NCBI RefSeq assembly: GCF_018324685.1
Contig: NZ_AP023354.1
Location: 2,108,001-2,172,000, forward strand
Source: Actinocatenispora sera
GTDB taxonomy: Bacteria; Actinomycetota; Actinomycetes; Mycobacteriales; Micromonosporaceae
Direction: 5' to 3'
DNA length: 64,000 bases
The notes under the pieces are model-generated. The model had not been told where the DNA came from. It did not search any database and worked only from the letters and a program-made list of their open reading frames with translations. Position 1 is the stretch's first letter. Each line of letters begins with the position of its first letter. The position numbers were made by a program, and so were the translations under genes. Positions 2,322 through 33,894 of the stretch are shown here, piece by piece.

Positions 2322-2403
2322 GGCGGGTTGCCCGAGCGGCCAAAGGGAGCGGTCTGTAAAACCGCCGGCATTGCCTACACTGGTTCAAATCCAGTACCCG
2401 CCA
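2322..2403 (+). tRNA. tRNA-Tyr (GTA), intact; AICE integration site
   Basis: Acceptor arms GGCGGGT and ACCCGCC pair fully. The anticodon stem GCGGT/ACCGC holds loop CTGTAAA (anticodon GTA). A long variable arm follows (stem GGC/GCC) and the T-arm is ACTGG TTCAAAT CCAGT. This class-II structure is diagnostic of tyrosine tRNA. CCA is not encoded directly at the 3' end. Its 3' half is the left copy of a 59-bp repeat that recurs at 17073 and 33836, so the functional 3' half was probably supplied by the integrating element. Confidence 0.97.
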
Positions 2404-2411
2404 CACCAGGG
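2353..2411 (+). repeat. att site A (left end of AICE 1, inside tRNA-Tyr)
   Basis: 59-bp core running from the anticodon loop (TCTGTAAAACCG) to ACACCAGGG just past the tRNA. It differs from copies B and C at five positions: 13, 18-20 and 36 of the core. All changes keep the tRNA fold or lie in the variable loop or T-loop. Confidence 0.9.
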
Positions 2412-2602: not shown

Positions 2603-4042
2603 TCAGCCTTGCTCGTCCTGGTCCGTGTCTTCTTGTCCTAGTCCTTCCGCTCCTAGTCCTTCCGCGATGCGACGCCGGGCGATGCTCTCCTGCCCATGGA
2701 TGCACTTGGCGTACGTGCGGAGCAGCACGGCGACGCTGTGCCCCGCCCACTCGGCCACCTGGGGCGCGGGCACACCGGAGTTCAGCCAGAGCGATACGGC
2801 GGCGTGTCGGAGGTCATACGGCCGGCGGGCGAGGGGCGATGTCGCTTCCGCGTCCGTCAGCGCTGCCCGCCGCGCGTCGCGCCACACCCGGCTGTACGTG
2901 TTGGTGGACACCGGCGAGCTGTACGGGCCGGCTATCGGTCGGCCGAAACGTCCGGTGCGCGTGACGAACAGCCGACCGTCCGGGCCGGTACCGAAGTCGG
3001 CCAGGTGCCGCCGGAGTGCGGCCACCAGGTCCGGACTGGCGGGCACGATGCGGGTGGCGTTCGCGGCGCGGTGCTTGAGGGCTCGGTCCTCCTTCGCTCC
3101 GTCGCCGTCGCCCCACGCGGTACCGACCTGCTGAGTCGAGCCGGTCAGCAGCAGCTCGCCCCACTGGTCGGCCGCATCCGCGGCAGGCAGGTTGCAGTTG
3201 CGTTGCCGCAGGTGGAGGACTTCGGCGGGACGGAGCGCGGCGTAGTACATGCACGCGAAGAACGCTTCGAGCTCAGGCGAGTTCTTCCGTACCGCAGCCA
3301 GCAGGCTCCGGGCTTGCTTCGGGTTGACGACCACGCGGCGGTCTACCTCCTCGGTGTTCTTCGGTGTCTTCCACTGGATGCGGTCAATCGGGTTGCCGCT
3401 GAGATAGCCGAGTTCGACGGCGTAGCGCAGCGCGTTGTAGAACACAGCACGTTTGCGGGCGATGGTGGTCGGTGCCGCCGGCTCGTTCTTACTCGTGACG
3501 GTGAGCGCGTCCAACGCCCGCCGAACGACCACGGGGTCCTGCAGATCGGCCAGGTCGATCGTGTTCGCGGCTGCCCACCGGGCCGGGCGTGATGTGGAGC
3601 GCTCGGGCTCAGCCGTACGGACGGCTTTGTTGAACGACCACGTGTAGAGCGTCGTGCGGAGCTGCTTGCGGTCGGGCATGCCGCGCGTGGTCGTGACCAG
3701 TGCCAGGGTCAGAGTCGTGAGAGCTTCCGCGATGCTCTTCCGGTGCCGCCCGGATGCGTGCGGCCACTTCATGTCGACGAACGCGCACGCGTGGTCGTAC
3801 CACGTGCGCTTGTTGCGTTCACGTTGCAGTGATACGGGGAGTCCGCTGTCCGCGTCGAACGCTTCGCCATCGCGAATGGCGGCCATCAAAGACGACCGGA
3901 ACGCGTCCGCCAGCTTGCGCGTCACGAAGGTGTCTTGCCGTTCCTTCCCGTCAACGACCCAGCGAACGGTGTAGGTGGTCTTTCGGGCGCCTCGGTTCGG
4001 GCGGATGCCCCAGATCTTGACGTTGAAAGTGGGGCGGGTCAT
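2603..4042 (-). CDS. int: Tyrosine site-specific integrase of AICE 1
   Basis: 479 residues. The C-terminal catalytic domain shows Arg in ALRPAEV (about 270), Lys in LKHR (about 323), the box YDLRH (about 408-412), His in GHS (about 434) and the nucleophile Tyr in RTYAKC (about 443). The first His of the HxxR box is Tyr here, as it also is in the element 2 integrase. The N-terminal part has an arm-binding/SAM-like layout. It catalyses recombination between attP and the tRNA-Tyr 3' end. It overlaps the excisionase by 4 bp (ATGA), so expression is coupled. Its 3' end faces att A at 190 bp. It is homologous to the integrase at 32314 (shared FYNAL.YAVE, NPID.I.WK, VDRR.V.NP). Confidence 0.95.
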   Translation of the reverse strand: MTRPTFNVKIWGIRPNRGARKTTYTVRWVVDGKERQDTFVTRKLADAFRSSLMAAIRDGEAFDADSGLPVSLQRERNKRTWYDHACAFVDMKWPHASGRHRKSIAEALTTLTLALVTTTRGMPDRKQLRTTLYTWSFNKAVRTAEPERSTSRPARWAAANTIDLADLQDPVVVRRALDALTVTSKNEPAAPTTIARKRAVFYNALRYAVELGYLSGNPIDRIQWKTPKNTEEVDRRVVVNPKQARSLLAAVRKNSPELEAFFACMYYAALRPAEVLHLRQRNCNLPAADAADQWGELLLTGSTQQVGTAWGDGDGAKEDRALKHRAANATRIVPASPDLVAALRRHLADFGTGPDGRLFVTRTGRFGRPIAGPYSSPVSTNTYSRVWRDARRAALTDAEATSPLARRPYDLRHAAVSLWLNSGVPAPQVAEWAGHSVAVLLRTYAKCIHGQESIARRRIAEGLGAEGLGQEDTDQDEQG

Positions 4043-4248
4043 GCAGCCTCCAAGGTTTCGAGCCAGGTTTCGAAGTCGGTGACGCGGATGCGCAGATCCC
4101 CGTTGGGCAGCTTGATCACGCGGGGGATGGCGCCTTTCGCGCGCCAGTCGTAGAACGTCGACCGGGCGATGCCGAGGGCATCGCACACGTCCTTGACGCT
4201 GAGGAACGGACGGCGGGTCTGTCGTGTTGGGCGGATGGGCGCGACCAT
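4039..4248 (-). CDS. xis: Excisionase, MerR-like helix-turn-helix
   Basis: 69 residues with a HTH_17-type motif: FLSVKDVCDALGIARSTFYDWRAKGAIP, followed by wing residues VIKLPNGDLRIR and FETWLETL. This is the standard AICE excisionase that bends att arms and steers the integrase to excision. It lies directly upstream of int with a 4-bp overlap. The paralogue at 32129 shares RSTxYxWR and LPNGxLRIR. AGAGG precedes the ATG. Confidence 0.9.
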   Translation of the reverse strand: MVAPIRPTRQTRRPFLSVKDVCDALGIARSTFYDWRAKGAIPRVIKLPNGDLRIRVTDFETWLETLEAA

Positions 4249-4575: not shown

Positions 4576-5880
4576 TCATGGGGTCTGCGCCGTTGTGGTG
4601 GGGGAAGCCGTACCAGCCGTACCAGCCGTAGCGTCGCTGGTCAGGGGCGGTACGGCTTGGAGGCTGGTACGGCTTAAGCCGTACCGCTGGTCAAGGCGTA
4701 CCGGGTCTGACCTGGTCTGGGACGGCTGGTACGGCTGGTACGGCTCGGCCAGTTCCAGTGGTGGCCGTGCGTCGCCGTCGGCCGAATTCTGTGACGGTGT
4801 GTAGCGTTCCCACGCGTCGGTGAAGTCCGCGCGGGCGTAGCCTTTGGCCTGCCCGACCGGCGAGGGGAACCGCAGGGTGCGAGAGCGGATGTCGTACTCG
4901 CGCAGCAGGTCACCCAGCTTCATGCCGGTCAGGCCGGCGCCGGTCGGGCCGTAGGTTGCCCACGGCGCTTCCGGGTCGGACTTGAGCCGTTCCAACAGGG
5001 TCGTCGTGGGGATCTTGTCCAGCTCAGCGAACGCCGCCCGGCAGTCGGCCAACAGCCGGATCCGGTCCGACCCGCCGTTGGTGTCGTCGGCCTCCGCGGT
5101 CAGCGCCAGCGCCGCCGCGCGTGCCCGCACCGGCCATTCGCCACCCGCCAGATCCGCGACCGCGACGAGCGGTTCCCACGTGTCGGCAGCGCGATCCTCC
5201 AACGGCATCACCGGTTCTGCCGCCTCCAGCTCGGTCAGGTGGCCAGACAGCCAGTCGGCCAGCCGGACGCCGATCGCGTTGAGCCCTGGCCCGTCGCGCC
5301 GCACCCGGTAGGGGGCGACGGTTTCCCCGGGCGCCCGGCGGCGCATGCGCACCACTACGGCCCGGTCTTCGATGGTGTCGGGCATGGCGCCGATGCCGGC
5401 CAGCGCCGCCATGGCGAAGGTCGGGATGGTTTCGAGCGACCGGGTGGCGTTGTCCCAGCGGATCGCGGGCCGGTTGCGCTGGTGACCGGCGTTGAGCAGC
5501 CCGCGTAGATCCTCGTTCGAGTCGCCTGCCTTGGCGCCGAAGATCGTGTCGGCCTCATCGATCAGCAGCGTCGGCGGGTTGCCGGTGCCGATCGCCCGGT
5601 ACACGGCGGCCGGGGAGGCGTTGACGGTCATCAGCGCGGCGTGGCAGGTGGCTTCCACCACGTCCAACAGCCGCGATTTGCCGCAGCGGCGTTCGGGTGC
5701 GCGGATCACCAGCCGTGGCGCGTGCGCCCACGCCGGTTGCGCGTGCGTGGCGGCGGTCCACAGCGCCACCGCGTCGACCGCTTCCGCACTCGGCAGCGAC
5801 ACGTAGCGCGTGATCGCGTCGTGCATCGCGTCCAGAATCGCCGCGCCGTCCGGCGGTCCGGTGCTGGAGTCGGTGGTCAT
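4576..5880 (-). CDS. DUF3631 P-loop protein, AICE replication helicase-like
   Basis: 434 residues. Walker A-like APERRCGKSRLLD (about 66-78) and Walker B TLLIDEADTIF (about 108-118) are followed by EDLRGLLNAGHQR and a conserved C-terminal block typical of DUF3631. Such proteins pair with Prim-Pol proteins in the replication module of AICEs and act as putative replicative ATPases or helicases. It overlaps the Prim-Pol gene by 4 bp, so the two are translated together. Its last 60 codons encode a PYQPYQPSQ-rich tail made of short DNA repeats described separately; this tail is less conserved-looking than the body. Confidence 0.85.
   Translation of the reverse strand: MTTDSSTGPPDGAAILDAMHDAITRYVSLPSAEAVDAVALWTAATHAQPAWAHAPRLVIRAPERRCGKSRLLDVVEATCHAALMTVNASPAAVYRAIGTGNPPTLLIDEADTIFGAKAGDSNEDLRGLLNAGHQRNRPAIRWDNATRSLETIPTFAMAALAGIGAMPDTIEDRAVVVRMRRRAPGETVAPYRVRRDGPGLNAIGVRLADWLSGHLTELEAAEPVMPLEDRAADTWEPLVAVADLAGGEWPVRARAAALALTAEADDTNGGSDRIRLLADCRAAFAELDKIPTTTLLERLKSDPEAPWATYGPTGAGLTGMKLGDLLREYDIRSRTLRFPSPVGQAKGYARADFTDAWERYTPSQNSADGDARPPLELAEPYQPYQPSQTRSDPVRLDQRYGLSRTSLQAVPPLTSDATAGTAGTASPTTTAQTP
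4606..4745. repeat. Iteron-like GGTACGGCT repeats inside the DUF3631 gene
   Basis: The 9-mer GGTACGGCT or its complement AGCCGTACC occurs at 4606, 4615, 4649, 4666, 4677, 4728 and 4737. The pair at 4666-4685 makes a perfect 20-bp palindrome, GGTACGGCTTAAGCCGTACC. Clustered short repeats in both orientations next to a replication gene suggest a Rep-binding origin. The alternative is a by-product of the Pro-Tyr-Gln peptide repeat. Confidence 0.6.
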
Positions 5881-6755
5881 GCGGGGACCCCTTCAGCGGT
5901 GAAGCCGCCCACGATGGCGGCGCGGATGTCCCGGTCGGTCTGCTGTGCCTGCCGGCCGGCGTCGGTGAGCGCAGCGACGGCCGTGGCAGTGTCCAGCGCG
6001 CCGGACGCGACGATGCGCGCCACGCCACGGGCCGCGCCGTACAGGGTCGTGCGGCGCCGTCCCTCCGGTGCCGTGGTGACCCGCCGCAGGTTCGCCGCCA
6101 GCAGCGCCGCCGGGGATGAGATGCCCCCGCCCCCCGACGGCGGCCGATCGGCGTCCGTCGGGCGGGGCGCGGTGATCTGCGGCGGCCGGGAGAGCGCCGG
6201 GGCGGTCACCACGTCGGCAAGGCGCGGGGGCATCTCATTGACCGGCCGCCCACCCACCGGCACGTACGGGCGGCGCGCGACCGGGTGTACCGACGGCGGC
6301 GCGACGACGTAGCCGCCGTCGGCCTTGATGTCGATTCCCGACCGGCCCGGCATCGGTCGGGACATGACCGTCCCGCCCGGGTGGGCGTAGTACAGGTGCC
6401 AGCCACCCGACCCGGTGGCCACGGTGTAGGTGGGCGCCATCAGCGCTCGGTCAACCCGCCCGCCGTGGTCGGGGTCGATGTCGACCACCACCAGCCCGGC
6501 CGGCACCCCGGTACGGATCGCGAGCAGCCCGCCCGGCACGGCGGCCAGCATCGCGGCGATGCGGGCCGGGTCGGTGGTCGCGGCGTAGAACCCGTGGCAG
6601 GTCAGGCACTCGCAGGCTTCCCGATCGTGCCCCGGGTCGGTTTTGGCCGACGGGCACGCCGGGCAGTTGGCGACCGGGCGTTTCGTGCGTCCCAGCACGA
6701 ACACGGGCCAGTCACGGCCGGCAGCAGACAACGCGGCGTCAAGATGTGCGTTCAT
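5877..6755 (-). CDS. Bifunctional DNA primase/polymerase (Prim-Pol)
   Basis: 292 residues. The N-terminal Prim-Pol domain is evident from WPVFVLGRTKRP, the Cys-rich insert CPACP...CECLTCHGFYAATTDPARIAAML and the catalytic VVVDIDPDHGG. Later blocks are TGSGGWHLYY and GIDIKADGGYVVAPPSVH, the conserved Asp/His residues of this family. It primes and copies the excised element (RepPP class of AICE replication). The ATG at 6755 begins the family domain; the longer frame upstream overlaps other genes. It overlaps the DUF3631 gene by 4 bp. Confidence 0.92.
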   Translation of the reverse strand: MNAHLDAALSAAGRDWPVFVLGRTKRPVANCPACPSAKTDPGHDREACECLTCHGFYAATTDPARIAAMLAAVPGGLLAIRTGVPAGLVVVDIDPDHGGRVDRALMAPTYTVATGSGGWHLYYAHPGGTVMSRPMPGRSGIDIKADGGYVVAPPSVHPVARRPYVPVGGRPVNEMPPRLADVVTAPALSRPPQITAPRPTDADRPPSGGGGISSPAALLAANLRRVTTAPEGRRRTTLYGAARGVARIVASGALDTATAVAALTDAGRQAQQTDRDIRAAIVGGFTAEGVPA

Positions 6756-6781
6756 CAGGTGATCTCCCTTCGGACAGCGGA

Positions 6782-7024
6782 TCAGCCGGCCAACGGCAGC
6801 GACGAGCCGCCCGCCGTCCCGCTGGCTGGGTGCGCCGGGGCGGCCGGGGCGGCAGCGGCAGCGATGGACAGCCGCAGGTAGAGGCGGAAGCGGCCGGGTT
6901 GTTCGAGCGGGTGCAGCTCGCCCAGGTGCGTGACGGTGCCGAGCCGGTGCAGCGCCGCCCACGCGGCGCGCAGCTCGTCTTTGCTGCCGTTGAGCCAGAC
7001 TTCGACTCCGGTCAGCGCGGCCAT
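6782..7024 (-). CDS. Small hypothetical AICE protein
   Basis: 80 residues, not recognised. The first 50 residues (VEVWLNGSKDELRAAWAALHRLGTV and GRFRLYLRLS) look like a compact alpha/beta domain; the rest is Ala/Pro rich. It lies 26 bp upstream of the Prim-Pol gene in the same direction and likely shares its transcript, preceded by GGGAGG. A replication-module accessory role is only inferred from position. Confidence 0.7.
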   Translation of the reverse strand: MAALTGVEVWLNGSKDELRAAWAALHRLGTVTHLGELHPLEQPGRFRLYLRLSIAAAAAPAAPAHPASGTAGGSSLPLAG

Positions 7025-7045
7025 GGCGACGTCCCTCCCCGCGGG

Positions 7046-7294
7046 TTAGCGGCTGGACTTGACGAGACGCCGGAGCCGGTTGGTGATCAGGACTCCGAGC
7101 CGGAACCGGCCGCCGGATCCTTTGCAGCGGCGGCAGTGCCGGTACGCGCGGCCGGACGGCGACGCGTGGCGGCCGGTGCCGCCGCAGCGCGGGCAGTTCC
7201 GAAACGGCCAGATCGCGCACGCGGCGAGGTAACCGAGGGTGATGACGGGCAGGATGCAGCAGGTGAAGCTAGCGAGGGTGCGGAGGGGGTGCAC
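7046..7294 (-). CDS. Membrane-anchored zinc-finger-like small protein
   Basis: 82 residues. A hydrophobic segment (about residues 8-30) is followed by CPRCGGTG and CRRCKGSG, two DnaJ-type CxxCxGxG half-fingers that could bind one zinc. The Arg-rich C-terminus suggests nucleic-acid or membrane-surface contact. First gene of the run 7294-4576. Function unknown. Confidence 0.65.
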   Translation of the reverse strand: MHPLRTLASFTCCILPVITLGYLAACAIWPFRNCPRCGGTGRHASPSGRAYRHCRRCKGSGGRFRLGVLITNRLRRLVKSSR

Positions 7295-10859: not shown

Positions 10860-11245
10860 GCCGCGGTCCCTTCCGCTGGCCCGTACTCGCAGTCCAGGCA
10901 GCGCCCGAACCGGCCCGGGATGACGTAGTCCTTGATGTGCCCGCACTCGGGGCAGGTGCGCCGCGCGGTGTTCGCCTTGTCCAGCGCCGCTCTCTGGCGT
11001 GGGGTGGCGGTCCGCTTCGGCTTCGCGGTGGCGATCGCGTACAGCAGCGCGATCCGGTCGCGGCGATGCCCGCGCCACATGATCTGGGCGACCGGATCGT
11101 GTCCGCCGGGCCGCAGGTTGAGCGTGGCGAGCTGGCGGCGGGTGGCCAGCCCCGGCGGTGCCAGACCCCAACAGAACGTCGGGATGCCGTACCGGTCGCC
11201 GTCGGGATCGATGTAGCGGGCCCGGATCCGCGACGAGTCGGCCAT
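10856..11245 (-). CDS. AICE RRQ-motif protein with C-terminal zinc ribbon
   Basis: 129 residues. Central ATRRQLATLNLRPGGHDPVAQIMWRGHRR is a block frequent in Streptomyces conjugative-element accessory proteins. The C-terminus has CPECGHIKDYVIPGRFGRCLDC, a four-cysteine zinc ribbon. The ATG at 11245 shares one base with the upstream stop (TGATG) and the downstream gene overlaps by 4 bp, so it sits in a tightly coupled operon. Function unknown; nucleic-acid binding is likely. Confidence 0.75.
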   Translation of the reverse strand: MADSSRIRARYIDPDGDRYGIPTFCWGLAPPGLATRRQLATLNLRPGGHDPVAQIMWRGHRRDRIALLYAIATAKPKRTATPRQRAALDKANTARRTCPECGHIKDYVIPGRFGRCLDCEYGPAEGTAA

Positions 11246-11475
11246 CAGTGCCCCGTATCGGTGTCGGAGACCTTCCGGCACGGCGGGTCGTTCACCCACC
11301 AGCCATGCCGGTCGGCCTTGGCGTCGGGCACGCAGTGACAGGCGGGGACCTTCCCGACAATGCGCCGGTCGGTGTGGCTGCCGTCCGGGCACTGGTAGTG
11401 GCGTCCGCAGCCGGCCGACAACGCGGCTGTCGCGGCGAGCACGAGCACGGCGGTTGCGGTGCGACGGTTGGCCAT
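11245..11475 (-). CDS. Putative small lipoprotein
   Basis: 76 residues. A short basic start (MANRRTA), a hydrophobic stretch and the lipobox LSAGC at about residues 18-22 predict signal-peptidase II processing and a lipid-anchored protein. The mature part holds six cysteines in total, including CPDGSHTDRR, ACHC and PPC, suggesting disulfides. Coupled by single-base overlaps to both neighbours. A surface role in mating pair contact or entry exclusion is conceivable but unproven. Confidence 0.7.
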   Translation of the reverse strand: MANRRTATAVLVLAATAALSAGCGRHYQCPDGSHTDRRIVGKVPACHCVPDAKADRHGWWVNDPPCRKVSDTDTGH

Positions 11476-11747
11476 CACGCCACCGCCCGTGTCCCGAACC
11501 GCCGCGCCACCGCCAGCCGCAGCCACGCGGCCAGCACGGCGCGTTCCGCGACGTGGTAGCGCTGCCAGTCCAGCTCCGTCGCCCGGCGGCGGCCGACGGT
11601 GATCAGCCGGATTTCCGCGTCGGTGAGCGTGACCTCGGCTTCGATGACCTCGTGCTCGTCTTCGATCGCGGCCAGGTCCGCCGCCGTCGGCTCCAGCTCG
11701 TCCCAGTCATTGTCCGAACCGCCATCCTCGTACGCCTCGTCGTTCAT
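11475..11747 (-). CDS. Small acidic protein, DUF6284-like
   Basis: 90 residues with an acidic N-terminus (MNDEAYEDGGSDNDWDELEPT) and a helical body AAIEDEHEVIEAEVTLTDAEIRL...TELDWQRYHVAERAVLAAWLRLAV. This layout is common in AICE and actinobacterial genomes under DUF6284; the assignment is from memory of the pattern and is tentative. GAGAGCACCTG precedes the ATG. It is the last gene of the cassette-like run and the first of the coupled run to 10650. No T-arm element follows it. Confidence 0.7.
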   Translation of the reverse strand: MNDEAYEDGGSDNDWDELEPTAADLAAIEDEHEVIEAEVTLTDAEIRLITVGRRRATELDWQRYHVAERAVLAAWLRLAVARRFGTRAVA

Positions 11748-11795
11748 CAGGTGCTCTCGCTTTCGGTGATGCGCCAACCGGTGTCGACGCTCAGC

Positions 11796-11835
11796 GCCCG
11801 CCCACGGCTCGAACGTGGGTGCCTGCCAGCCGGGC
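11796..11835 (-). repeat. T-arm-like structured element, copy 1
   Basis: On the minus strand: GCCCG, an 11-nt linker, CCCACG TTCGAGC CGTGGG, CGGGC. Outer and inner stems pair completely. It lies 8 nt after the stop of the 49-residue gene. Unlike the other copies, it is not followed by CACG on the minus strand. Confidence 0.8.
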
Positions 11836-11843
11836 GAGGGTGG

Positions 11844-11993
11844 CTACCGCAGGTGCCAGGGCAGACGCTTGCCCGCATCGGCCACGGCCTTGTTCGCCTT
11901 GAGGTAGTCGGACTCCTTGGCGTTCTTCGGCAGCCGGGCCAGGTTCTTCTTGGCCGCCTCGTACGCCTTGCGCGCCTCGTCGTGCTTGCTCAT
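11844..11993 (-). CDS. Small helical hypothetical protein
   Basis: 49 residues, very basic: MSKHDEARKAYEAAKKNLARLPKN then ESDYLKANKAVADAGKRLPWHL. Two predicted helices, possibly DNA or RNA binding by charge. GAAAGGA lies about 11 nt before the ATG. Followed 8 nt after its stop by T-arm element copy 1. No family recognised. Confidence 0.65.
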   Translation of the reverse strand: MSKHDEARKAYEAAKKNLARLPKNAKESDYLKANKAVADAGKRLPWHLR

Positions 11994-12040
11994 CGCGTGC
12001 GGGTCCTTTCTGCAGCGGCGCCGCAGGTCGGCGCCGTCGT

Positions 12041-12080
12041 GCCCGCCCACGGCTCGAACGTGGGTGCCTGCCTGCCGGGC
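12041..12080 (-). repeat. T-arm-like structured element, copy 2
   Basis: Same architecture as copy 1 (inner stem CCCACG/CGTGGG, loop TTCGAGC, outer GCCCG/CGGGC). It begins 8 nt after the 29-residue gene stop. A second 8-bp stem CGGCGCCG (12016-12023 with 12029-12036) lies between it and the next ribosome-binding site. Confidence 0.8.
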
Positions 12081-12088
12081 GATGCGGG

Positions 12089-12178
12089 TCAGTGGCCGGT
12101 GGCGGCCATGACGATGGCGAACACGAGCGCCGCCACCAGGGCGAAGATGCCGAGTAGGTACGCGCCAGAACCGCGCAT
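12089..12178 (-). CDS. 29-residue single-pass membrane peptide
   Basis: MRGSGAYLLGIFALVAALVF continues with a second hydrophobic stretch and ends ATGH. Almost the whole peptide is one transmembrane helix. GGAGG sits 7 nt before the ATG. It occupies a full unit between T-arm elements copies 3 and 2, which supports it being a real gene despite its size. Function unknown. Confidence 0.65.
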   Translation of the reverse strand: MRGSGAYLLGIFALVAALVFAIVMAATGH

Positions 12179-12211
12179 GATGTGCCTCCGTTGTCCGATG
12201 TAGACGGTCGT

Positions 12212-12251
12212 GCCCGCCCCGGGCTCGAACCGGGGTGCCTGCCGGCCGGGC
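12212..12251 (-). repeat. T-arm-like structured element, copy 3
   Basis: Inner stem is CCCCGG/CCGGGG instead of CCCACG/CGTGGG, a compensated change around the same TTCGAGC loop. Outer stem GCCCG/CGGGC is unchanged. It starts 17 nt after the stop of the 50-residue gene. Confidence 0.8.
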
Positions 12252-12268
12252 GCCTGTCTGGTGAGCGG

Positions 12269-12421
12269 TCAGCCGTGCAAGCCGTGGCCGCTGGCGATCA
12301 ACGCCGCGAGTTCACGGACGGCCTTGTCCTTGGCCGACTGCGACTTGCCGGACATCTGCCGGTTGACGATCTGGCGGGCGAGCTCGACATGCACCGTGGT
12401 CGGTGCCTTCGCGGCGGCCAT
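12269..12421 (-). CDS. Small hypothetical protein
   Basis: 50 residues: MAAAKAPTTVHVELARQIVN then a basic helix with SGKSQSAKDKAVRELAALI and a GHGLHG end. The ATG shares a base with the preceding stop (TGATG), so it is coupled to the 69-residue gene. The pair forms one unit, with no structured element between them but one (copy 3) after. Not recognised. Confidence 0.6.
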   Translation of the reverse strand: MAAAKAPTTVHVELARQIVNRQMSGKSQSAKDKAVRELAALIASGHGLHG

Positions 12422-12630
12422 CACAGACCCATCCGGCGCCGCTGAGCGGCGGGGATCTTCTTCAGGTCGGCCAGGCCGCGCTTGAAGTTGCCCTCTCCGA
12501 GGGTGGTGACGATGTCGCGGTACTGGCCCATCGACATGGACTCGGTACCGTGCTTGGCGTACTGGTTCCTGGCGCCGTTGATGGCGGCGCGGGCGGCGGC
12601 CTTGGCGATACGGGCGGCAAGGGATGCCAT
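12421..12630 (-). CDS. Small basic hypothetical protein
   Basis: 69 residues: MASLAARIAKAAARAAINGA followed by NQYAKHG, MGQYRDIVTTLGEGNFKRGLADLKKIPAAQRRRMGL. Strongly basic and helical. AGGAAGAGG lies about 10 nt upstream of the ATG. A 13-bp hairpin (12668-12709) lies upstream of this ribosome-binding site. Not recognised; nucleic-acid binding is possible on charge. Confidence 0.6.
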   Translation of the reverse strand: MASLAARIAKAAARAAINGARNQYAKHGTESMSMGQYRDIVTTLGEGNFKRGLADLKKIPAAQRRRMGL

Positions 12631-12667
12631 GATGGGGGTACCTCTTCCTGTATTGGGAGGGTGGTGG

Positions 12668-12709
12668 CCGGCCCAACCCCGTGCTTTCCAGGCCAAGGGG
12701 TTGGGCCGG
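12668..12709. other. Perfect 13-bp stem-loop between units
   Basis: CCGGCCCAACCCC (12668-12680) pairs exactly with GGGGTTGGGCCGG (12697-12709) around 16 nt. It lies between T-arm element copy 4 and the ribosome-binding site of the 69-residue gene. No T-tract follows on the minus strand, so a processing or stability role is as likely as termination. Confidence 0.7.
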
Positions 12710-12714
12710 TTCGT

Positions 12715-12754
12715 GCCCGCCCACGGCTCGAACGTGGGTGCCTGCCGGCCGGGC
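12715..12754 (-). repeat. T-arm-like structured element, copy 4
   Basis: Inner stem CCCACG/CGTGGG, loop TTCGAGC, outer stem GCCCG/CGGGC, linker GCCGGCAGGCA. It starts 8 nt after the stop of the 85-residue gene. Confidence 0.8.
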
Positions 12755-12762
12755 GGTGCGGG

Positions 12763-13020
12763 TCAGGACTTGCGAAGCTCGCGGTAGTGCTGCTGCTCGT
12801 CCCGCAGAGCCGCTTCGATCGCGCGGATCTCGCTTTCGGTCCCGCGGATGGCGTGCCTGTCGTTGCCGTTTACGGGCAGCTTGAGCAGCCGCAGGATGTT
12901 CTGTTCCTTCTTCAGGTCAGCACGCAGACGAGCCTGTACGGTCTCTGAGAAACGCAGGTACTTCGCCTTGTTCTTCTCGCGCTCCTCCCGCTCCGCCTTG
13001 CTGGGTCCAAACAGCCCCAT
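12763..13020 (-). CDS. Small coiled-coil protein
   Basis: 85 residues. MGLFGPSKAEREEREKNKAK, then long charged helices (RFSETVQARLRADLKKEQNI; TESEIRAIEAALRDEQQHYRELRKS) predict a coiled coil. AGGAG precedes the ATG. Own unit between T-arm elements copies 5 and 4. A 7-bp hairpin GCTTCGC/GCGAAGC (13044-13062) lies just upstream of its ribosome-binding site. No known family seen. Confidence 0.7.
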   Translation of the reverse strand: MGLFGPSKAEREEREKNKAKYLRFSETVQARLRADLKKEQNILRLLKLPVNGNDRHAIRGTESEIRAIEAALRDEQQHYRELRKS

Positions 13021-13067
13021 CGCTGTACTCCTGTGGTGTCGATGCTTCGCCTTGTGCGAAGCGCCGT

Positions 13068-13107
13068 GCCCGCCCACGGCTCGAACGTGGGTGCCTGCCT
13101 GCCGGGC
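13068..13107 (-). repeat. T-arm-like structured element, copy 5
   Basis: Identical inner stem and loop to copies 1, 2 and 4, linker GCAGGCAGGCA. It starts 6 nt after the stop of the 71-residue gene and is followed by the 13044-13062 hairpin. Confidence 0.8.
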
Positions 13108-13113
13108 GGGTGG

Positions 13114-13329
13114 TCAGACCCATCGGCCTTCGGTCCAGACCCGCAGGACCGTTCCGTCCGGGCCGCAGATCGAGACGTTGGCATGCTTGTCGCGCTTGGT
13201 TTCGCGGTCGACGACCGGGATGGCCTTGAACCAGCCGTCACAGCCGATCGGGTCGCCGTGGTCGGCGTGGCCGACGGGGAAGCGGGCGACGGTACGGCCG
13301 TTGACCTTCACGCTGACCTTCTGTGCCAC
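13114..13329 (-). CDS. Small beta-rich hypothetical protein
   Basis: 71 residues with a GTG start preceded by GGAGG. KVSVKVNGRTVARFPVG, FKAIPVVDRETKRDKHANVSI and GTVLRVWTEGRW alternate hydrophobic and polar residues as in a beta-barrel. Own unit between T-arm elements copies 6 and 5. Upstream hairpin GACGCCG/CGGCGTC (13351-13369). Not recognised. Confidence 0.65.
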   Translation of the reverse strand: MAQKVSVKVNGRTVARFPVGHADHGDPIGCDGWFKAIPVVDRETKRDKHANVSICGPDGTVLRVWTEGRWV

Positions 13330-13373
13330 GGTGTTCCTCCGGTGTGCGGTGACGCCGCTGGTCGGCGTCTCGT

Positions 13374-13418
13374 GCCCGCCCCGGGCTCGAACCGGGGTGC
13401 CTGCCTGTCAGGTCGGGC
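13374..13418 (-). repeat. T-arm-like structured element, copy 6
   Basis: Inner stem CCCCGG/CCGGGG around TTCGAGC, outer stem GCCCG/CGGGC. The linker is longer (16 nt) and can itself pair as CCTG-A-CAGG. It starts 10 nt after the stop of the DUF3307-like gene. Confidence 0.8.
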
Positions 13419-13428
13419 GAACAACGGG

Positions 13429-13890
13429 TTAGGCGCACGCGGCGAGGATCAGCGCGGCCACCAGCAGGAACAGGTAGTGCGCGGACTGATCGAGCGCGTA
13501 GGCGCCGGTGCCCAGCGACGGGTTGTCGTCGTGGCCGGGCCGGGGTGCGCCCATCCGCACGAAGTGCTTGGACCCGGTGTGTTCGGCCAGCCAGAAAAGC
13601 GGCCAACGCCGGTCGATCAGCCAATGCGTGACGCCGGAAACGGCCAGCCCGGCGGCGGTACCGGCCGCCGGCAACGGCAGCCCGATGGCCAGGTGCAAGG
13701 CGGCGAGCAGGACGGCACAGGTGGCGGTGTAGGTGGCCACGTGCCAGGTACAGGCGATACGGCCGGGCCAGCCCGGCAACGCCTTACGGCACGCCTGCCG
13801 GTCGGTCTGAATCCAGTGGTCTGCCAGCTGGTGGGCGACGAACAACGCGGCGAACGCCGCGCCGAACACGGCCAGCGGGGATACGAGCAT
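13429..13890 (-). CDS. DUF3307-like membrane protein
   Basis: 153 residues. AAFAALFVAHQLADHWIQTD, VTHWLIDRRWPLFWL, YALDQSAHYLFLLVAALILA and several hydrophobic helices fit the DUF3307 pattern, in which conserved HxxxD and DxxxH pairs lie in membrane helices. AGGAGT precedes the ATG at 13890; a GTG one codon upstream is an alternative, and the frame stays open further upstream through T-arm copy 7. First gene of the minus-strand run after the divergent regulator. Role in the element unknown. Confidence 0.7.
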   Translation of the reverse strand: MLVSPLAVFGAAFAALFVAHQLADHWIQTDRQACRKALPGWPGRIACTWHVATYTATCAVLLAALHLAIGLPLPAAGTAAGLAVSGVTHWLIDRRWPLFWLAEHTGSKHFVRMGAPRPGHDDNPSLGTGAYALDQSAHYLFLLVAALILAACA

Positions 13891-13946
13891 CACGACTCCT
13901 GACAACGGGAAACGTGGAAGAGAGGCGGCGCGGTGATCGCGCTCGT

Positions 13947-13992
13947 GCCCGTCCCGCGACTCGAACGCGGGTGCTGGCCTGCCAGGCCGGGC
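13947..13992 (-). repeat. T-arm-like structured element, copy 7
   Basis: Inner stem CCCGCG/CGCGGG around TTCGAGT, a third stem variant that is again fully compensated. Outer stem GCCCG/CGGGC with one unpaired A. The linker folds as GCCT/AGGC. It lies in the leader of the minus-strand run, with no confident gene before it. Confidence 0.75.
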
Positions 13993-14259
13993 GATGGTGT
14001 GCGGCCCTCGGTTGGGCGGGCGGGCGGACAAGTCATGCGGCCGGAACACGTCAACGGCCGACACCCGCGCGCCACCCCTAGGCCGCGTGCATCCGGAGCA
14101 ATCCGGCAGACGGATCTGCCTGCATCCGGGGATCCCCTGTCCAGTTGTGAAGCGACATGCGCACGGAAGGACAGAGGGCAACGCACGCCATGGCCAACCG
14201 GCCCGGAGACCGGCCCGGCATCGCTGCCTGTGACCCGCGTCTCGCGGTGTGCGTTGAAG
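13993..14259 (-). other. Leader/promoter region of the minus-strand run
   Basis: About 270 bp between the operators and copy 7. A weak minus-strand frame ending at 14078 (MSLHNWTGDPRMQADPSAGL then LRMHAA) has no convincing ribosome-binding site. I see no gene I would defend here. Confidence 0.35.
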
Positions 14260-14352
14260 CTAACAGTTGGTCTGAGACCGTGTCAACTGTTAGGTCAAGA
14301 TCAGTTAGAAAGTTGGCTGTGACCTGCGCAAACATCTCGGATCAACTGTTAG
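14260..14352. promoter_or_regulatory. Operator array for the GntR-type regulator
   Basis: CTAACAGTTG at 14260-14269 and its exact complement CAACTGTTAG at 14284-14293 form an inverted repeat, and CAACTGTTAG recurs at 14343-14352. They sit between the divergent regulator gene and the minus-strand run. Autoregulation and control of the transfer/cassette genes, as with KorSA of pSAM2, is the natural inference. Confidence 0.75.
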
Positions 14353-14404
14353 ATGCTCTGGTAGGGTGCTAGCTGTCCAGTACAGACGAAGGGCAGGGAG
14401 CACG

Positions 14405-15256
14405 ATGACCACCCCTGGTCAGCCGCTCAGCAAGTCCGAGCCGCTCACCCAGCAGGTCGCGCGGAACATCCGCAACGCGATCGAGGCAGGCACGCTGCGA
14501 CACGGGCAGATCCTTGCCTCTACCCGCGAATTAGCCCAGGAATGGGGCGTAAGTGTTTTCACGATCAATGAGGCGATGAAGACCCTCATTCAAGAGGGCA
14601 TCGTGGTGAGCAAGTCGCGTTCAAAGCGGATGGTCAACCACCCCGACGGCGAGCCGGACCGCCGGGTCACGCCATCGTCCAAACCGCGTGTGGTCTTCGT
14701 CGGCGGCTATGCCGGGAGCGGAAAGTCGGAGTTCGGGAGGATCCTCGCGCGCGAGACCGGTTGGCCGATCCTGGACAAGGACACCTTGACTCGCCCGGTC
14801 GTAGAAATGGCGCTGGAAGCCCTCGGCCTGTCGCCACACGATCGAGAGTCCGGCAAGTACCTGAGCACTGTTCGGCCGCGCGAGTACGAAGCCCTGATCT
14901 CTGCGACCAACGAGAACGTTGATTGCGGATTGAGCGCGGTTGTAACGGCCCCATTCCTCCGTGAATTCAGCGACGATGCATGGCTAGAACGCACCGTTGC
15001 TGCCCTCGCGGATCGTGGCGCCGTCGTGACTTTCGTATGGATTCACTGTGACGAAGACACGATGCGCACCTACATCCGCCACCGCGGTGCCGCCCGAGAC
15101 TCCGCAAAGATGGCCAACTGGTCCACGTACCTCGACGGGATTAACATCGACTTCCGGCCAGCCGTGGCGCACGTCGTAGTAGAGAACTCCGCCAGCAGTG
15201 CGCCGCTGAAGGTGCAAGCTGCCAAACTCATCGATAGCTTCATGGCTCAGCCCTGA
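14405..15256 (+). CDS. GntR-HTH regulator fused to a P-loop kinase domain
   Basis: 283 residues. The N-terminal winged helix of GntR type spans about 10-78 (LTQQVARNIRNAIEAGTLRHGQIL, ASTRELAQEWGVSVFTINEAMKTL, EGIVVSKSR). From about 95 a P-loop domain of AAA_33/zeta-toxin-kinase style follows: VVFVGGYAGSGKSEFGRILA, LDKDTLTRPVVEMAL and IHCDEDTMRTYIRHRGAARDS. The usual effector domain is thus replaced by a nucleotide-binding one. AGGGAGCACG precedes the ATG. Operators lie directly upstream. It resembles KorSA-type AICE repressors in position. Whether the kinase part phosphorylates a ligand or only senses a nucleotide is unknown. Confidence 0.85.
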   Translation: MTTPGQPLSKSEPLTQQVARNIRNAIEAGTLRHGQILASTRELAQEWGVSVFTINEAMKTLIQEGIVVSKSRSKRMVNHPDGEPDRRVTPSSKPRVVFVGGYAGSGKSEFGRILARETGWPILDKDTLTRPVVEMALEALGLSPHDRESGKYLSTVRPREYEALISATNENVDCGLSAVVTAPFLREFSDDAWLERTVAALADRGAVVTFVWIHCDEDTMRTYIRHRGAARDSAKMANWSTYLDGINIDFRPAVAHVVVENSASSAPLKVQAAKLIDSFMAQP

Positions 15257-15422: not shown

Positions 15423-16766
15423 TCAGGTGTCGCTTTCTCTTCCTTCGTTTAAGAGTCGACTTCTTTCCTCCAGTACCCGGCGTGCATGCTCGCTCCGGCG
15501 CCTCCGAATCTGAGCGTCCCGAATCTGGGACTCCCTATGCGCTCGCATGACTGCGCCTTTTTGTGACGTCTTTGGCCGGGATGAAAGCGATGAATCCATA
15601 AAGTGTTCGTCAACGTCCGTTAGCTGATCATAAAGGGCACCGATTCGTTGCCTCAGCACAGACAAAGCTTCTTCATGGACGGCAATGTCGGCCAGCAAGA
15701 CTGGACGGTCGTTCGAGTCGCCCAGGTCTGACTGCTCGTAAAGCAAATCTAGGTGCTTGCGCGTGTCTTCTTCCTCGGAGGAAGCTCGACGTATATCGAG
15801 GATGATCTCTGTGTGTCGCTTCTGCCAGTATTCCTTCTCTCCTCGTTTTATCAGTCGTTCGGGTGCCTCTTCCTCCACGCGTCGCGATTGCTCGATGGTA
15901 TTCGAGTCGATGTGTACAGACAGCGCAGACTTGGCTGCTTCTAGAAACGCTGCGGCGTCTAGAATCATCAGCCGCACTCCCGCACGTTCCTTCAGCTCTT
16001 CTACGAGTTGCAAGTTTGGCCCGACCGAATGGGTCCTGCTCTTCCTCCACCAGTCATCTTTGCCGTCATCCGTAACGATCAGAACATCTTGTTTCCGTCG
16101 CGATGCCTCAGCTATGGTTTCTTCCCAGATCAAGTAGTCACCTGACCTATTTTCTTCCTTATCGGCATCTCGGTAACCAGGCGGAATGCTCTCCTTTGCC
16201 CTTTCGTCAAACTGGGCCTCAAGGACAGCTCTTTGTTCCGATGTTGGTTGGGCTCCAATATATCTGGCGAAGATTGGATTTAGTTCATCCAGAACGGAAT
16301 CGCCTTCTAGTGACCCGACGACGGAGAACTCATACTTAGCCTGGTGCTCTGCGATTTGCTTGTGAATCTTGGCCAATGCGTGGTCTAAGCCAGCAGTTAG
16401 GTCATGTTTTTCCGCGGCCGTGAACTTGCACGTATTTGCGAAATGATTGAGCGTACCAAAGAGCTGCTCTTTGTGGGTGTTTAGCGCCTTCGAAAGCACG
16501 TCGTATTGCTTTACTTGCTGATCGATTATATCGATTCGCTTGTTGTGGAACTCAACAGCGACCTGAAACGGCATAAACAACCTGTCGCCGATGCGGTTGA
16601 TTGCCCGGAATAGTTCAACTCTGGCCGAGGCGGTAAATTTGTACAGTAGCAGGAGAACGTTGGTGTCGAGGACCACCATGCCGTTTCGTAGGAAATCATT
16701 CCGCTCGTCTCGCGAGGGACGCAAGTACGGGCTGAAATCAGGATGAAAGTAACGCCTTTTCGTCAT
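15423..16766 (-). CDS. PIN-like domain protein (PIN_8 type), cargo gene
   Basis: 447 residues. The PIN nuclease fold is indicated by MVVLDTNVLLLLYKF (first Asp), FMPFQVAVEFHNKR (Glu), and the distal acidic patch VLIVTDDGKDDWW. The C-terminal third is a highly charged helical or coiled-coil region. Proteins of this PIN_8/DUF4935 type are frequent in mobile islands and are suspected RNases. Base composition is clearly less GC-rich than its neighbours and codon use differs, so it was acquired from elsewhere. It sits at the right end of AICE 1, the usual cargo place. No antitoxin gene is apparent beside it. Confidence 0.8.
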   Translation of the reverse strand: MTKRRYFHPDFSPYLRPSRDERNDFLRNGMVVLDTNVLLLLYKFTASARVELFRAINRIGDRLFMPFQVAVEFHNKRIDIIDQQVKQYDVLSKALNTHKEQLFGTLNHFANTCKFTAAEKHDLTAGLDHALAKIHKQIAEHQAKYEFSVVGSLEGDSVLDELNPIFARYIGAQPTSEQRAVLEAQFDERAKESIPPGYRDADKEENRSGDYLIWEETIAEASRRKQDVLIVTDDGKDDWWRKSRTHSVGPNLQLVEELKERAGVRLMILDAAAFLEAAKSALSVHIDSNTIEQSRRVEEEAPERLIKRGEKEYWQKRHTEIILDIRRASSEEEDTRKHLDLLYEQSDLGDSNDRPVLLADIAVHEEALSVLRQRIGALYDQLTDVDEHFMDSSLSSRPKTSQKGAVMRAHRESQIRDAQIRRRRSEHARRVLEERSRLLNEGRESDT

Positions 16767-17072: not shown

Positions 17073-17131
17073 TCTGTAAAACCGTCGGCTACGCCTACAC
17101 TGGTTCGAATCCAGTACCCGCCACACCAGGG
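17073..17131 (+). repeat. att site B (junction of AICE 1 and AICE 2)
   Basis: 59-bp copy of the tRNA-Tyr 3' half, identical to copy C and differing from copy A at five positions. The tRNA 5' half is absent, so this is not a functional tRNA. Confidence 0.92.
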
Positions 17132-33835: not shown

Positions 33836-33894
33836 TCTGTAAAACCGTCGGCTACGCCTACACTGGTTCGAATCCAGTACCCGCCACACCAGGG
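33836..33894 (+). repeat. att site C (right end of AICE 2)
   Basis: 59-bp copy of the tRNA-Tyr 3' half, identical to copy B. The upstream sequence does not complete a tRNA. Confidence 0.92.

Follow-up and report, generated by a model that had tools for sequence, protein, structure and literature searches.

In mitochondrial transcripts, tRNAs standing between genes mark the sites at which the RNA is cut (tRNA punctuation), and the put RNA of phage HK022 brings two adjacent RNA modules to phage early operons, at one site per early promoter. We know of no kind of element in which stand-alone tRNA-elbow RNAs are repeated at gene junctions. The tRNA elbow rests on the contacts G18-Psi55 and G19-C56 (PMC4810234; papers cited by PMC number are represented in this work by excerpts), and its readers include the ribosome, RNase P, T-box RNAs, RNase Z, TruB and CCA-adding enzymes (PMC4810234, PMC4919913). 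Here we analyze a 64,000-nt stretch of Actinocatenispora sera DNA (the window), in which a run of small genes carries seven copies of an RNA element of about 44 nt; the run lies in a mobile element whose gene content and tRNA-Tyr ends fit an actinomycete integrative and conjugative element (AICE). As judged from covariation, the RNA almost certainly folds into an acceptor-like helix stacked on a T-arm, with a 1-bp mini D-arm and a tRNA-type elbow.

The element can be set beside five described systems. It shares with put the two adjacent RNA modules, whereas put has no elbow and occurs once per early promoter. With mitochondrial punctuation it would share a way of working, tRNA-shaped units between genes, but those units are true tRNAs and cutting at the element is a proposal. 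Stoperators of cluster A and R4-like phages likewise occupy multiple intergenic sites in overlapping phage groups; they are DNA sites bound by a repressor, while our element is defined by RNA covariation (the R4 stoperator was compared by its description only). The tRNA-like structures of plant RNA viruses, of the turnip yellow mosaic virus type, also mimic the elbow and use pseudoknotting, and they are reported as RNase P substrates (PMC4810234, PMC11143913). Those structures are larger and stand at the genomic 3' end, and viral 3' tRNA-like structures have an aminoacylatable CCA end, whereas the element has no CCA and is internal, repeated and carried by double-stranded DNA phages and integrative and conjugative elements (ICEs). 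Finally, the start-associated sequences (SAS) and extended SAS (ESAS) of cluster K phages are repeated, oriented elements of unknown function upstream of a subset of phage genes, but they consist of a 13-bp sequence, GGGATAGGAGCCC, next to the start codon plus 17-bp imperfect repeats, with no tRNA-like fold in the excerpted description (PMC3203893).

A sequence-only reading of this DNA had listed seven copies between positions 11796 and 13992 of the minus strand, the coding strand of the gene run, and all seven were found where it placed them (Table 1). Five of them have an acceptor paired 5/5, an 11-nt linker and a T-stem paired 6/6. Copy 1 is made up of GCCCG, a 16-nt linker, the T-arm CCCGCG-TTCGAGT-CGCGGG, a bulged A, CGGGC and ACGA, and its linker can fold a 3-bp D-like hairpin, GCC[TGGCA]GGC. 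In copy 2 the acceptor has two readings: GCCCG, paired 5/5 with a linker of 16 nt, and ACCTG, paired 4/5 with the standard linker of 11 nt. A long hairpin comes after copy 4, with arms at 12694-12709 and 12668-12683. The pattern YGGCAGRCANNNNNGTTCGAGYC, with up to 3 mismatches, has 7 matches in the window, all in the array, against 0.71 expected, and none of 100 shuffles reached 7. Covariance-model E-values of the copies ranged from 1.3e-16 to 2.8e-7; five of the seven were in the model alignment, and the independent values are those of the other two, 3.1e-13 and 2.8e-7. A model search of the 7.04-Mb single-contig host genome, at E up to 0.001, found no further copies.

Six of the copies begin 6, 8, 8, 8, 10 or 15, and 17 nt past a stop codon, in agreement with the 6-17 nt that had been read from the letters. 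The seventh, at 13992, has no recognisable gene before it and sits in the leader of the DUF3307 gene. Junctions free of copies are gene overlaps (TGATGG at 12421, and from 11475 onward), also as first read. Plus-strand frames across the array repeat peptides such as PRLERGCLPAG, owing to the repeated elements, and could be misannotated as false genes.

In the 40-nt core, numbered 1-40, a helix (1-5/36-40) encloses a pair, 7-13, that closes loop 8-12 (commonly YGGCA), then linker bases R14, C15 and A16, and a T-arm (17-22/30-35) with its T-loop (23-29). The geometry is rigid across the family: a 5-bp acceptor, an 11-nt linker, a 6-bp T-stem and a 7-nt loop, then usually R-C. In this fold the G18 and G19 equivalents of the minimal D-arm dock into the T-loop and make the tRNA-type elbow. 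Acceptor letters vary from copy to copy in the best phage matches that we read, with pairing kept each time. Our first search pattern held no acceptor letters, and the acceptor nonetheless pairs 5/5 in 172 of 182 distinct matches to it, among the matches listed; when one strand was slid by 1-3 nt (six controls), only 0-3 of the 182 did so. Together with an elbow that covaries in 184 untargeted copies, these data uphold the earlier likeness to an acceptor plus T-arm minihelix. The accompanying statement that D- and anticodon arms are absent holds for the anticodon arm; the D-arm, by contrast, is present in reduced form, as the 1-bp mini D-arm whose loop covaries with the T-loop.

The decisive tally uses 184 copies in the retrieved loci that match none of our five fetch patterns and for which only the two helices and the equivalents of the elbow pair U54-A58 (T at loop base 1, A at loop base 5) were required. 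Here position 9 and loop base 2 (pair 9/24, the equivalents of tRNA G18 and U55) are G-U in 147, A-G in 26 and other in 11; after dereplication to 117 copies, the counts are 89, 17 and 11. Position 10 and loop base 3, the G19-C56 equivalents, are G-C in 175 and other in 9. Pair 7-13 is standard in 177 of the 184 (CG 94, AT 44, GC 19, TA 16, TG 3, GT 1) and pair 14-29 in 171 (AT 64, GC 60, CG 26, TA 12, TG 6, GT 3), so that each shows four Watson-Crick types. Because 14-29 connects a linker base with the final base of the T-loop, on the far side of the T-stem, it must be a tertiary or pseudoknot pair. Pair 15-28 (C-G 151, G-C 10, U-G 2, G-U 1, U-A 1 and other 19, over the eight commonest types) has modest support.

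Larger tallies agree with these counts, although they include pattern anchors and are therefore inflated. The first pattern, used on viral contigs and also on species genomes, fixed G9, G10, G13, R14, U at loop base 2 and Y29; the second viral pattern fixed G9, G10, C13, A14 and T29, and the third added A7 and T13. In viral loci fetched with the first pattern, 7-13 is standard in 254 of 255 copies and 14-29 in 253, among the matches listed, and since the pattern fixed G13, R14 and Y29, position 7 is the only independent evidence in this tally. In the last two patterns loop base 2 had to be G while position 9 could be any base; among the matches listed, all 67 copies have A at position 9. Over 577 copies, 9/24 is G-U in 482, A-G in 91 and other in 4, and 25 of the 91 A-G copies lie in loci that predate the G-fixed scans; one of these larger tallies also required 7-13 and 14-29.

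For model building we used an alignment of 70 of 71 dereplicated rows (A2), the same after removal of 4 more rows unlike the family (A3, giving model R1), and one of 94 of 95 dereplicated rows plus 4 window copies (A4, giving the broader model R2). Over the 98 rows of A4 the covariation score came to 0.888, whereas shuffles gave 0.182 and slid controls 0.097-0.155; these rows had been selected for their helices, and one tertiary pair was set as 9-25 instead of 9-24, which lowers the whole-structure figures slightly.

The sequence-only reading had placed the structure in RNA of the coding strand, and the mismatches bear this out. In 481 copies with at least 9 of 12 strict Watson-Crick pairs, the non-Watson-Crick cells on the element strand are G.U in 105 cases, A.C in 19 and other in 51, and after dereplication (n=193) G.U still leads A.C by 56 to 13. 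Because G.U outnumbers A.C on that strand, selection acts on the RNA strand and not on a DNA cruciform. A role as DNA, whether as a repressor-bound stoperator, a cruciform or a recombination cassette border, is brought to mind by the intergenic stoperators reported in R4-like Streptomyces phages (PMC10276819), yet the stems vary with compensation, the G.U excess is one-stranded, and all copies share a single strand in 90 of 90 multi-copy loci. Nor does the element go with its downstream gene over its upstream one. Mean identity at the 10 stem positions was 0.715 where the downstream gene alone was shared, 0.723 for the upstream gene alone, 0.801 for both and 0.598 for neither (347 elements; same-locus pairs and pairs more than 90% identical in protein left out). 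A cassette border travelling with the downstream gene was thus rejected, and the cassette borders offered in the first reading gain no backing, as element similarity tracks both neighbours equally. We regard any such DNA role as extremely improbable.

Compared with canonical tRNA, the element has the same T-loop signature, G53-C61, docking of the D-loop GG, G1-C72, and a purine then C past the acceptor. It differs in having no anticodon arm, a 1-bp D-stem and a split of 5-bp acceptor and 6-bp T-stem (7 + 5 in tRNA); its T-loop base 60 pairs with the linker, its tail reads R-C then mostly T or G in place of CCA, and it is embedded in mRNA leaders. The two helices were required by the scan in the tallies of the tail, position -1, G1-C72, placement and the second hairpin given below. 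The purine and the C past the acceptor stem each occur in about 98% of 258 copies among the matches listed. An extended acceptor pair, -1:+3, is Watson-Crick in 174 of 311 against 124 expected, which is suggestive only. Subtypes include loops UGCGA and UGCAA with A at position 9, and the copy in the phiCAM first-gene leader has the loop UCCGAGU. A longer-linker relative in phage Lika (L124, about 7010-7070, minus strand; loop UGCAAGG, acceptor GGGCG/CGCCC, ACTG tail; 23.8 bits, E 3.2e-4) suggests that the family holds further subtypes.

ARAGORN, run on the window and 21 loci, called none of the seven window copies. Its sole call overlapping a copy was a 'tRNA-Ala' at 6880-6973 (minus) of locus L207, where the core occupies 6883-6922; the call seems to borrow the T-arm of the element and shows how elements could be misannotated as tRNA genes. 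Searches of Rfam 15 with positions 11000-15000 of the window (E up to 10) and five phage loci (E up to 1) gave no match on a copy and none near a gathering score.

The placement of the element is narrow on both sides. Upstream, a frame of at least 60 codons ends no more than 100 nt before 261 of 288 elements, at 0-19 nt in 214; downstream, a Shine-Dalgarno sequence and start follow within 120 nt in 252 of 288, at 30-59 nt in 220. On the opposite strand the corresponding counts were 121/281 (upstream frame) and 48/281 (Shine-Dalgarno plus start), and at random places 379/864 and 336/864, or 90/864 and 94/864 in the tight intervals. Against annotation, a stricter scan gave 7 copies in Lika and 9 in phiCAM, all sense and, apart from one with a 9-nt overlap onto an annotated start, all intergenic. 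From this placement and the strand bias, the copies are probably transcribed. The position after a stop codon given in the first reading thus describes most copies without being the whole rule, as the first-gene leaders of the AICE and of phiCAM carry a copy. No element was found by the stricter scan in the first-gene leader of Lika (L124); that leader (14423-14700, minus) holds a larger fold ending GGGAGGC-ACTG, which by eye resembles a longer acceptor plus tail.

Such placement would also suit a translation leader, in which an elbow RNA, left uncut, stands at a set distance before the Shine-Dalgarno sequence and aids or times ribosome loading, for example through the elbow-binding parts of the ribosome. 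The tight spacing from element to start speaks for it, as do the copies in first-gene leaders, the reading of the tRNA elbow by the ribosome (PMC4810234) and the start-associated repeats found at comparable places in cluster K mycobacteriophages (PMC3203893). We nevertheless think it unlikely, since the interval from the upstream stop varies about as little and a variable hairpin between the element and the Shine-Dalgarno sequence makes a fixed ribosome geometry less likely.

This second, variable hairpin (stem of at least 6 bp) lies 3' of the element in 61% of 356 leaders, drawn from 459 elements, compared to 18% of mononucleotide shuffles, and its 5' strand begins at +3 to +6 in 169 of 216. 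A typical unit runs from the stop through a short gap to the mini-tRNA and R-C, then the hairpin, the Shine-Dalgarno sequence and the start. In the stretches examined, an element fills all 8 phiCAM gaps of at least 80 nt between annotated minus-strand genes and 7 of the 10 such gaps of Lika. Filled gaps and the paired hairpin are what one would expect if an elbow-locked fold and its neighbour blocked exonucleases, shielded the gap from RNases or Rho, and fixed message ends, with no enzyme recruited. For that purpose any stable hairpin would suffice, however, and the strict loop and linker conservation and the covarying elbow need another reason; single copies, moreover, are not unusually stable. 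A purely stabilizing role is therefore doubtful.

A two-module RNA on one strand of phage early regions could also act in transcription, as a nascent-RNA antiterminator of the HK022 put type or as a terminator. Yet copies occur one per gap and not one per promoter, unlike put sites, and the window copies have no T-run after the stem; of three Bacteroidota copies that we read, the one in L167 has four T from 6 nt past the stem and the other two have none. Since T-runs are absent from the window copies and from two of the three Bacteroidota copies, the element is not an intrinsic terminator as a rule. Three terminator-like sites were found in 11400-14500, and none is the element. The alternative once set against the sequence-only reading, ordinary terminators with an unconstrained loop, likewise finds no backing, the loop being among the most conserved parts. 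We consider a transcriptional role quite unlikely.

We put at roughly 40% the probability that the element is a tRNA-elbow mimic that serves host RNase P-type processing at gene junctions. The elbow and acceptor end would recruit a universal host tRNA-binding machine, for which RNase P is the best candidate. RNase P would cut 5' of the acceptor stem and split the long polycistronic message into units; each unit would get a defined, structured 5' end, the upstream message would end a few nucleotides past its own stop codon, and the outcome would be a phage or ICE version of tRNA punctuation. Reading by RNase P, already raised in the sequence-only reading, is plausible: polycistronic mRNAs, viral tRNA-like structures and phage RNAs are all reported among its targets (PMC11143913). 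The element offers the RNase P-type sequence features of an elbow, a stacked acceptor/T helix, purine 73 and C74, and the G1-C72 equivalent is present in 246 of 255 copies among the matches listed. That it occurs in Actinomycetota as well as Bacteroidota suggests that its reader is universal.

Several observations weigh against RNase P. The stack is 11 bp (5+6), where tRNA has 12. The third tail base is C in only 3% of 258 copies among the matches listed, so that the full RCC contact is missing, and the A at -1, conserved in 73% of the same set, finds no explanation in RNase P. C1-G72 variants occur (CG in 11 of 98 A4 rows), and copies in first-gene leaders cannot be gene separators. In addition, the folding energies of single window copies were no better than those of dinucleotide shuffles in 7 of 7 cases (z from -0.65 to +0.48; each stretch tested was one base short at the 3' end). 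Because single copies match the shuffles in energy, the evidence for the fold is its covariation and not its stability.

The family extends far beyond the array, with hundreds of relatives, and the covariance-model search proposed in the sequence-only reading found distant conserved matches past stop codons in phages and mobile elements. A blastn search with one copy gave 110 phage records at E up to 10, led by phiHau3, BroPlease and GreenWeasel (E 1e-8); among the best 60 of the 110, most matches lie at places with no annotated feature, and many weak ones may be chance. Model R2, applied to whole records, found copies on the minus strand only, at 43.0-50.1 kb, in BroPlease (6), phiHau3 (6), phiCAM (10) and Lika (8), 30 in total. 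It also found 13 in Mycobacterium phage Papyrus, 9 in Alsaber, 8 in Vanseggelen, 5 in Mycobacterium phage Konstantine, 2 in Riemerella phage vB_RanS_CRP19 and 1 in Actinomyces phage xhp1. Among the carriers are Arquatrovirinae phages of Streptomyces, a related Actinocatenispora AICE and Mu-like elements in Bacteroidota. Three phages with blast matches, Gordonia phage Ohgeesy, Fusobacterium phage Fnu1 and Pectobacterium phage My1, had no model match, and the blast matches in Vibrio, Erwinia, Serratia and Shewanella, among the matches listed, fall on tRNA genes. Plasmid pCM32, which has DUF3307 in common with the AICE, gave 0 copies with R2.

With R1 at E up to 0.001, matches were found in 15 of 200 bacterial genomes of the family, 11 of 394 of the class and 6 of 198 of the phylum, each tally counting the window's own genome and some matches with E near the limit; such a sporadic spread is what mobile elements should show. 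When 84,980 species genomes were scanned by pattern, 76 loci came back. Sixteen of them have a 5/5 acceptor and a T-stem of at least 4/5 (11 in Actinomycetota, 3 in Bacteroidota and 2 in stretches of a 'Gemmatimonadota' metagenome-assembled genome, MAG), and the other 60, lacking this structure, were taken as chance. The Bacteroidota loci are from Capnocytophaga felis (L167), Riemerella columbipharyngis (L230) and a Bacteroidetes MAG (L208). L167 and L208 encode AAA_22 ATPases, L208 also an integrase-core protein just under the Pfam cut-off, and viral contig L240 (G+C content, GC, 0.36) encodes a Mu transposase C-terminal domain and AAA_22; we read these three as probable Mu-like phages. The MAG, CP070815.1 (L188, L203), holds several copies near a terminase-like open reading frame and runs of N, the listed copies all being followed by ACGATC. 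Because this stretch is probably phage, we do not claim a third phylum. The GC of 189 element-bearing viral loci ranges from 0.34 to 0.72, and the family is therefore not a GC artefact.

Copy number is high in places, with up to 11 in one contig stretch besides the 13 of Papyrus, and many copies could tie up a host enzyme that binds tRNA, or a defence nuclease, much as RNA viruses that mimic the elbow engage the tRNA machinery of their hosts (PMC4810234). Copies that stand mostly one per gap at fixed spacing would be needless for such a decoy, however, and anticodon nucleases would find no anticodon arm, so that we hold this very unlikely.

Across these carriers it is possible, though we would not call it probable, that the copies form a new class of compact tRNA-elbow RNAs, borne by phages and conjugative elements in at least two phyla, that marks gene junctions of polycistronic messages for processing by host RNase P (or RNase Z) in the manner of tRNA precursors. 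As an element class it looks new; elbow mimicry itself has precedent in plant RNA viruses. Some of its phages grow on laboratory strains, and in the stretches opened their records carry no annotation of the element. Among the open-access papers listed by our searches, none describes it in the title or the opening of the abstract; an earlier mention may exist in genome papers on R4-like or cluster H/R phages or in supplements. The excerpts of PMC2864571, PMC8040213, PMC3203893 and PMC10276819 describe other motifs, and the thousands of unnamed candidates of PMC8040213 are not covered by this comparison. The family is a structured-RNA class whose tertiary contacts, including the swap at G18-U55, are readable from sequence alone, and a compact natural elbow with no anticodon half, which bears on how the upper half of tRNA stands alone. 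Should RNase P or the ribosome be recruited by the elbow, tRNA recognition would have become a general operon-organising tool of phages and ICEs, and the element would be a natural minimal substrate for probing what either machine must see.

Table 1. Element copies, genes of the run and features of the surrounding mobile element (positions in the window).
Feature	Position	Strand	Remarks
Copy 1	13947-13992	-	Leader of first gene; covariance model 32.2 bits, E 2.8e-7
Copy 2	13374-13418	-	T-arm CCCCGG-TTCGAGC-CCGGGG; tail ACGA; 51.6 bits
Copy 3	13068-13107	-	Canonical geometry; tail ACGG; 61.9 bits
Copy 4	12715-12754	-	Canonical geometry; tail ACGA; 62.6 bits
Copy 5	12212-12251	-	Canonical geometry; T-stem CCCCGG/CCGGGG; tail ACGA; 59 bits
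Copy 6	12041-12080	-	Canonical geometry; tail ACGA; 62.3 bits
Copy 7	11796-11835	-	Canonical geometry; tail GCTG; 62.2 bits
DUF3307 protein gene, 153 aa, first of run	13429-13890	-	PF11750, E 4.4e-9; start 56 nt past copy 1
71-aa gene, between copies 2 and 3	13114-13329	-	No Pfam match
85-aa gene, between copies 3 and 4	12763-13020	-	No Pfam match
69-aa gene after copy 4, overlapping next gene (junction with no element)	12421-12630	-	No Pfam match
50-aa gene before copy 5	12269-12421	-	
29-aa gene, between copies 5 and 6	12089-12178	-	
49-aa gene, between copies 6 and 7	11844-11993	-	
90-aa gene after copy 7; then overlapping genes, no more copies	11475-11747	-	
tRNA-Tyr, one AICE end	2322-2404	+	Putative attachment site
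Repeated tRNA-Tyr 3' part, other AICE end	17074-17128	+	Boundaries by eye
Tyrosine-recombinase integrase frame	2603-4186	-	PF00589, E 7e-9
Prim-Pol type replication protein frame	5877-6782	-	PF09250, E 1.2e-30

Besides the proteins in Table 1, the mobile element encodes DUF3631, GntR-AAA and PIN_8 proteins and a 725-aa protein that we take to be FtsK-like (no Pfam match). An array in A. rupis (L229) adjoins relatives of two proteins of the AICE, the 725-aa protein (33% identity, E 1e-79) and a 299-aa protein (57%, E 2e-107), and for this reason we place it in a related AICE. Divergent from the array, a regulator gene (14393-15256, plus strand) encodes a fusion of a GntR domain with an AAA_33/zeta-toxin-like P-loop domain. 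Between this gene and the array, the divergent promoter region holds an 18-nt inverted repeat, 89% complementary (14260-14277 and 14335-14352), that begins CTAACAGTTG and is a possible operator. A third tRNA-Tyr 3' part at 33867 (plus strand), with the T-arm ACTGG-TTCGAAT-CCAGT followed by acccgccacaccagg (the others are at 2384 and 17104), hints at a second, tandemly inserted mobile element at about 17.1-33.9 kb. Near the AICE end, a 447-aa PIN_8 domain protein (15423-16766, minus strand) is possibly the product of a toxin or defence cargo gene.

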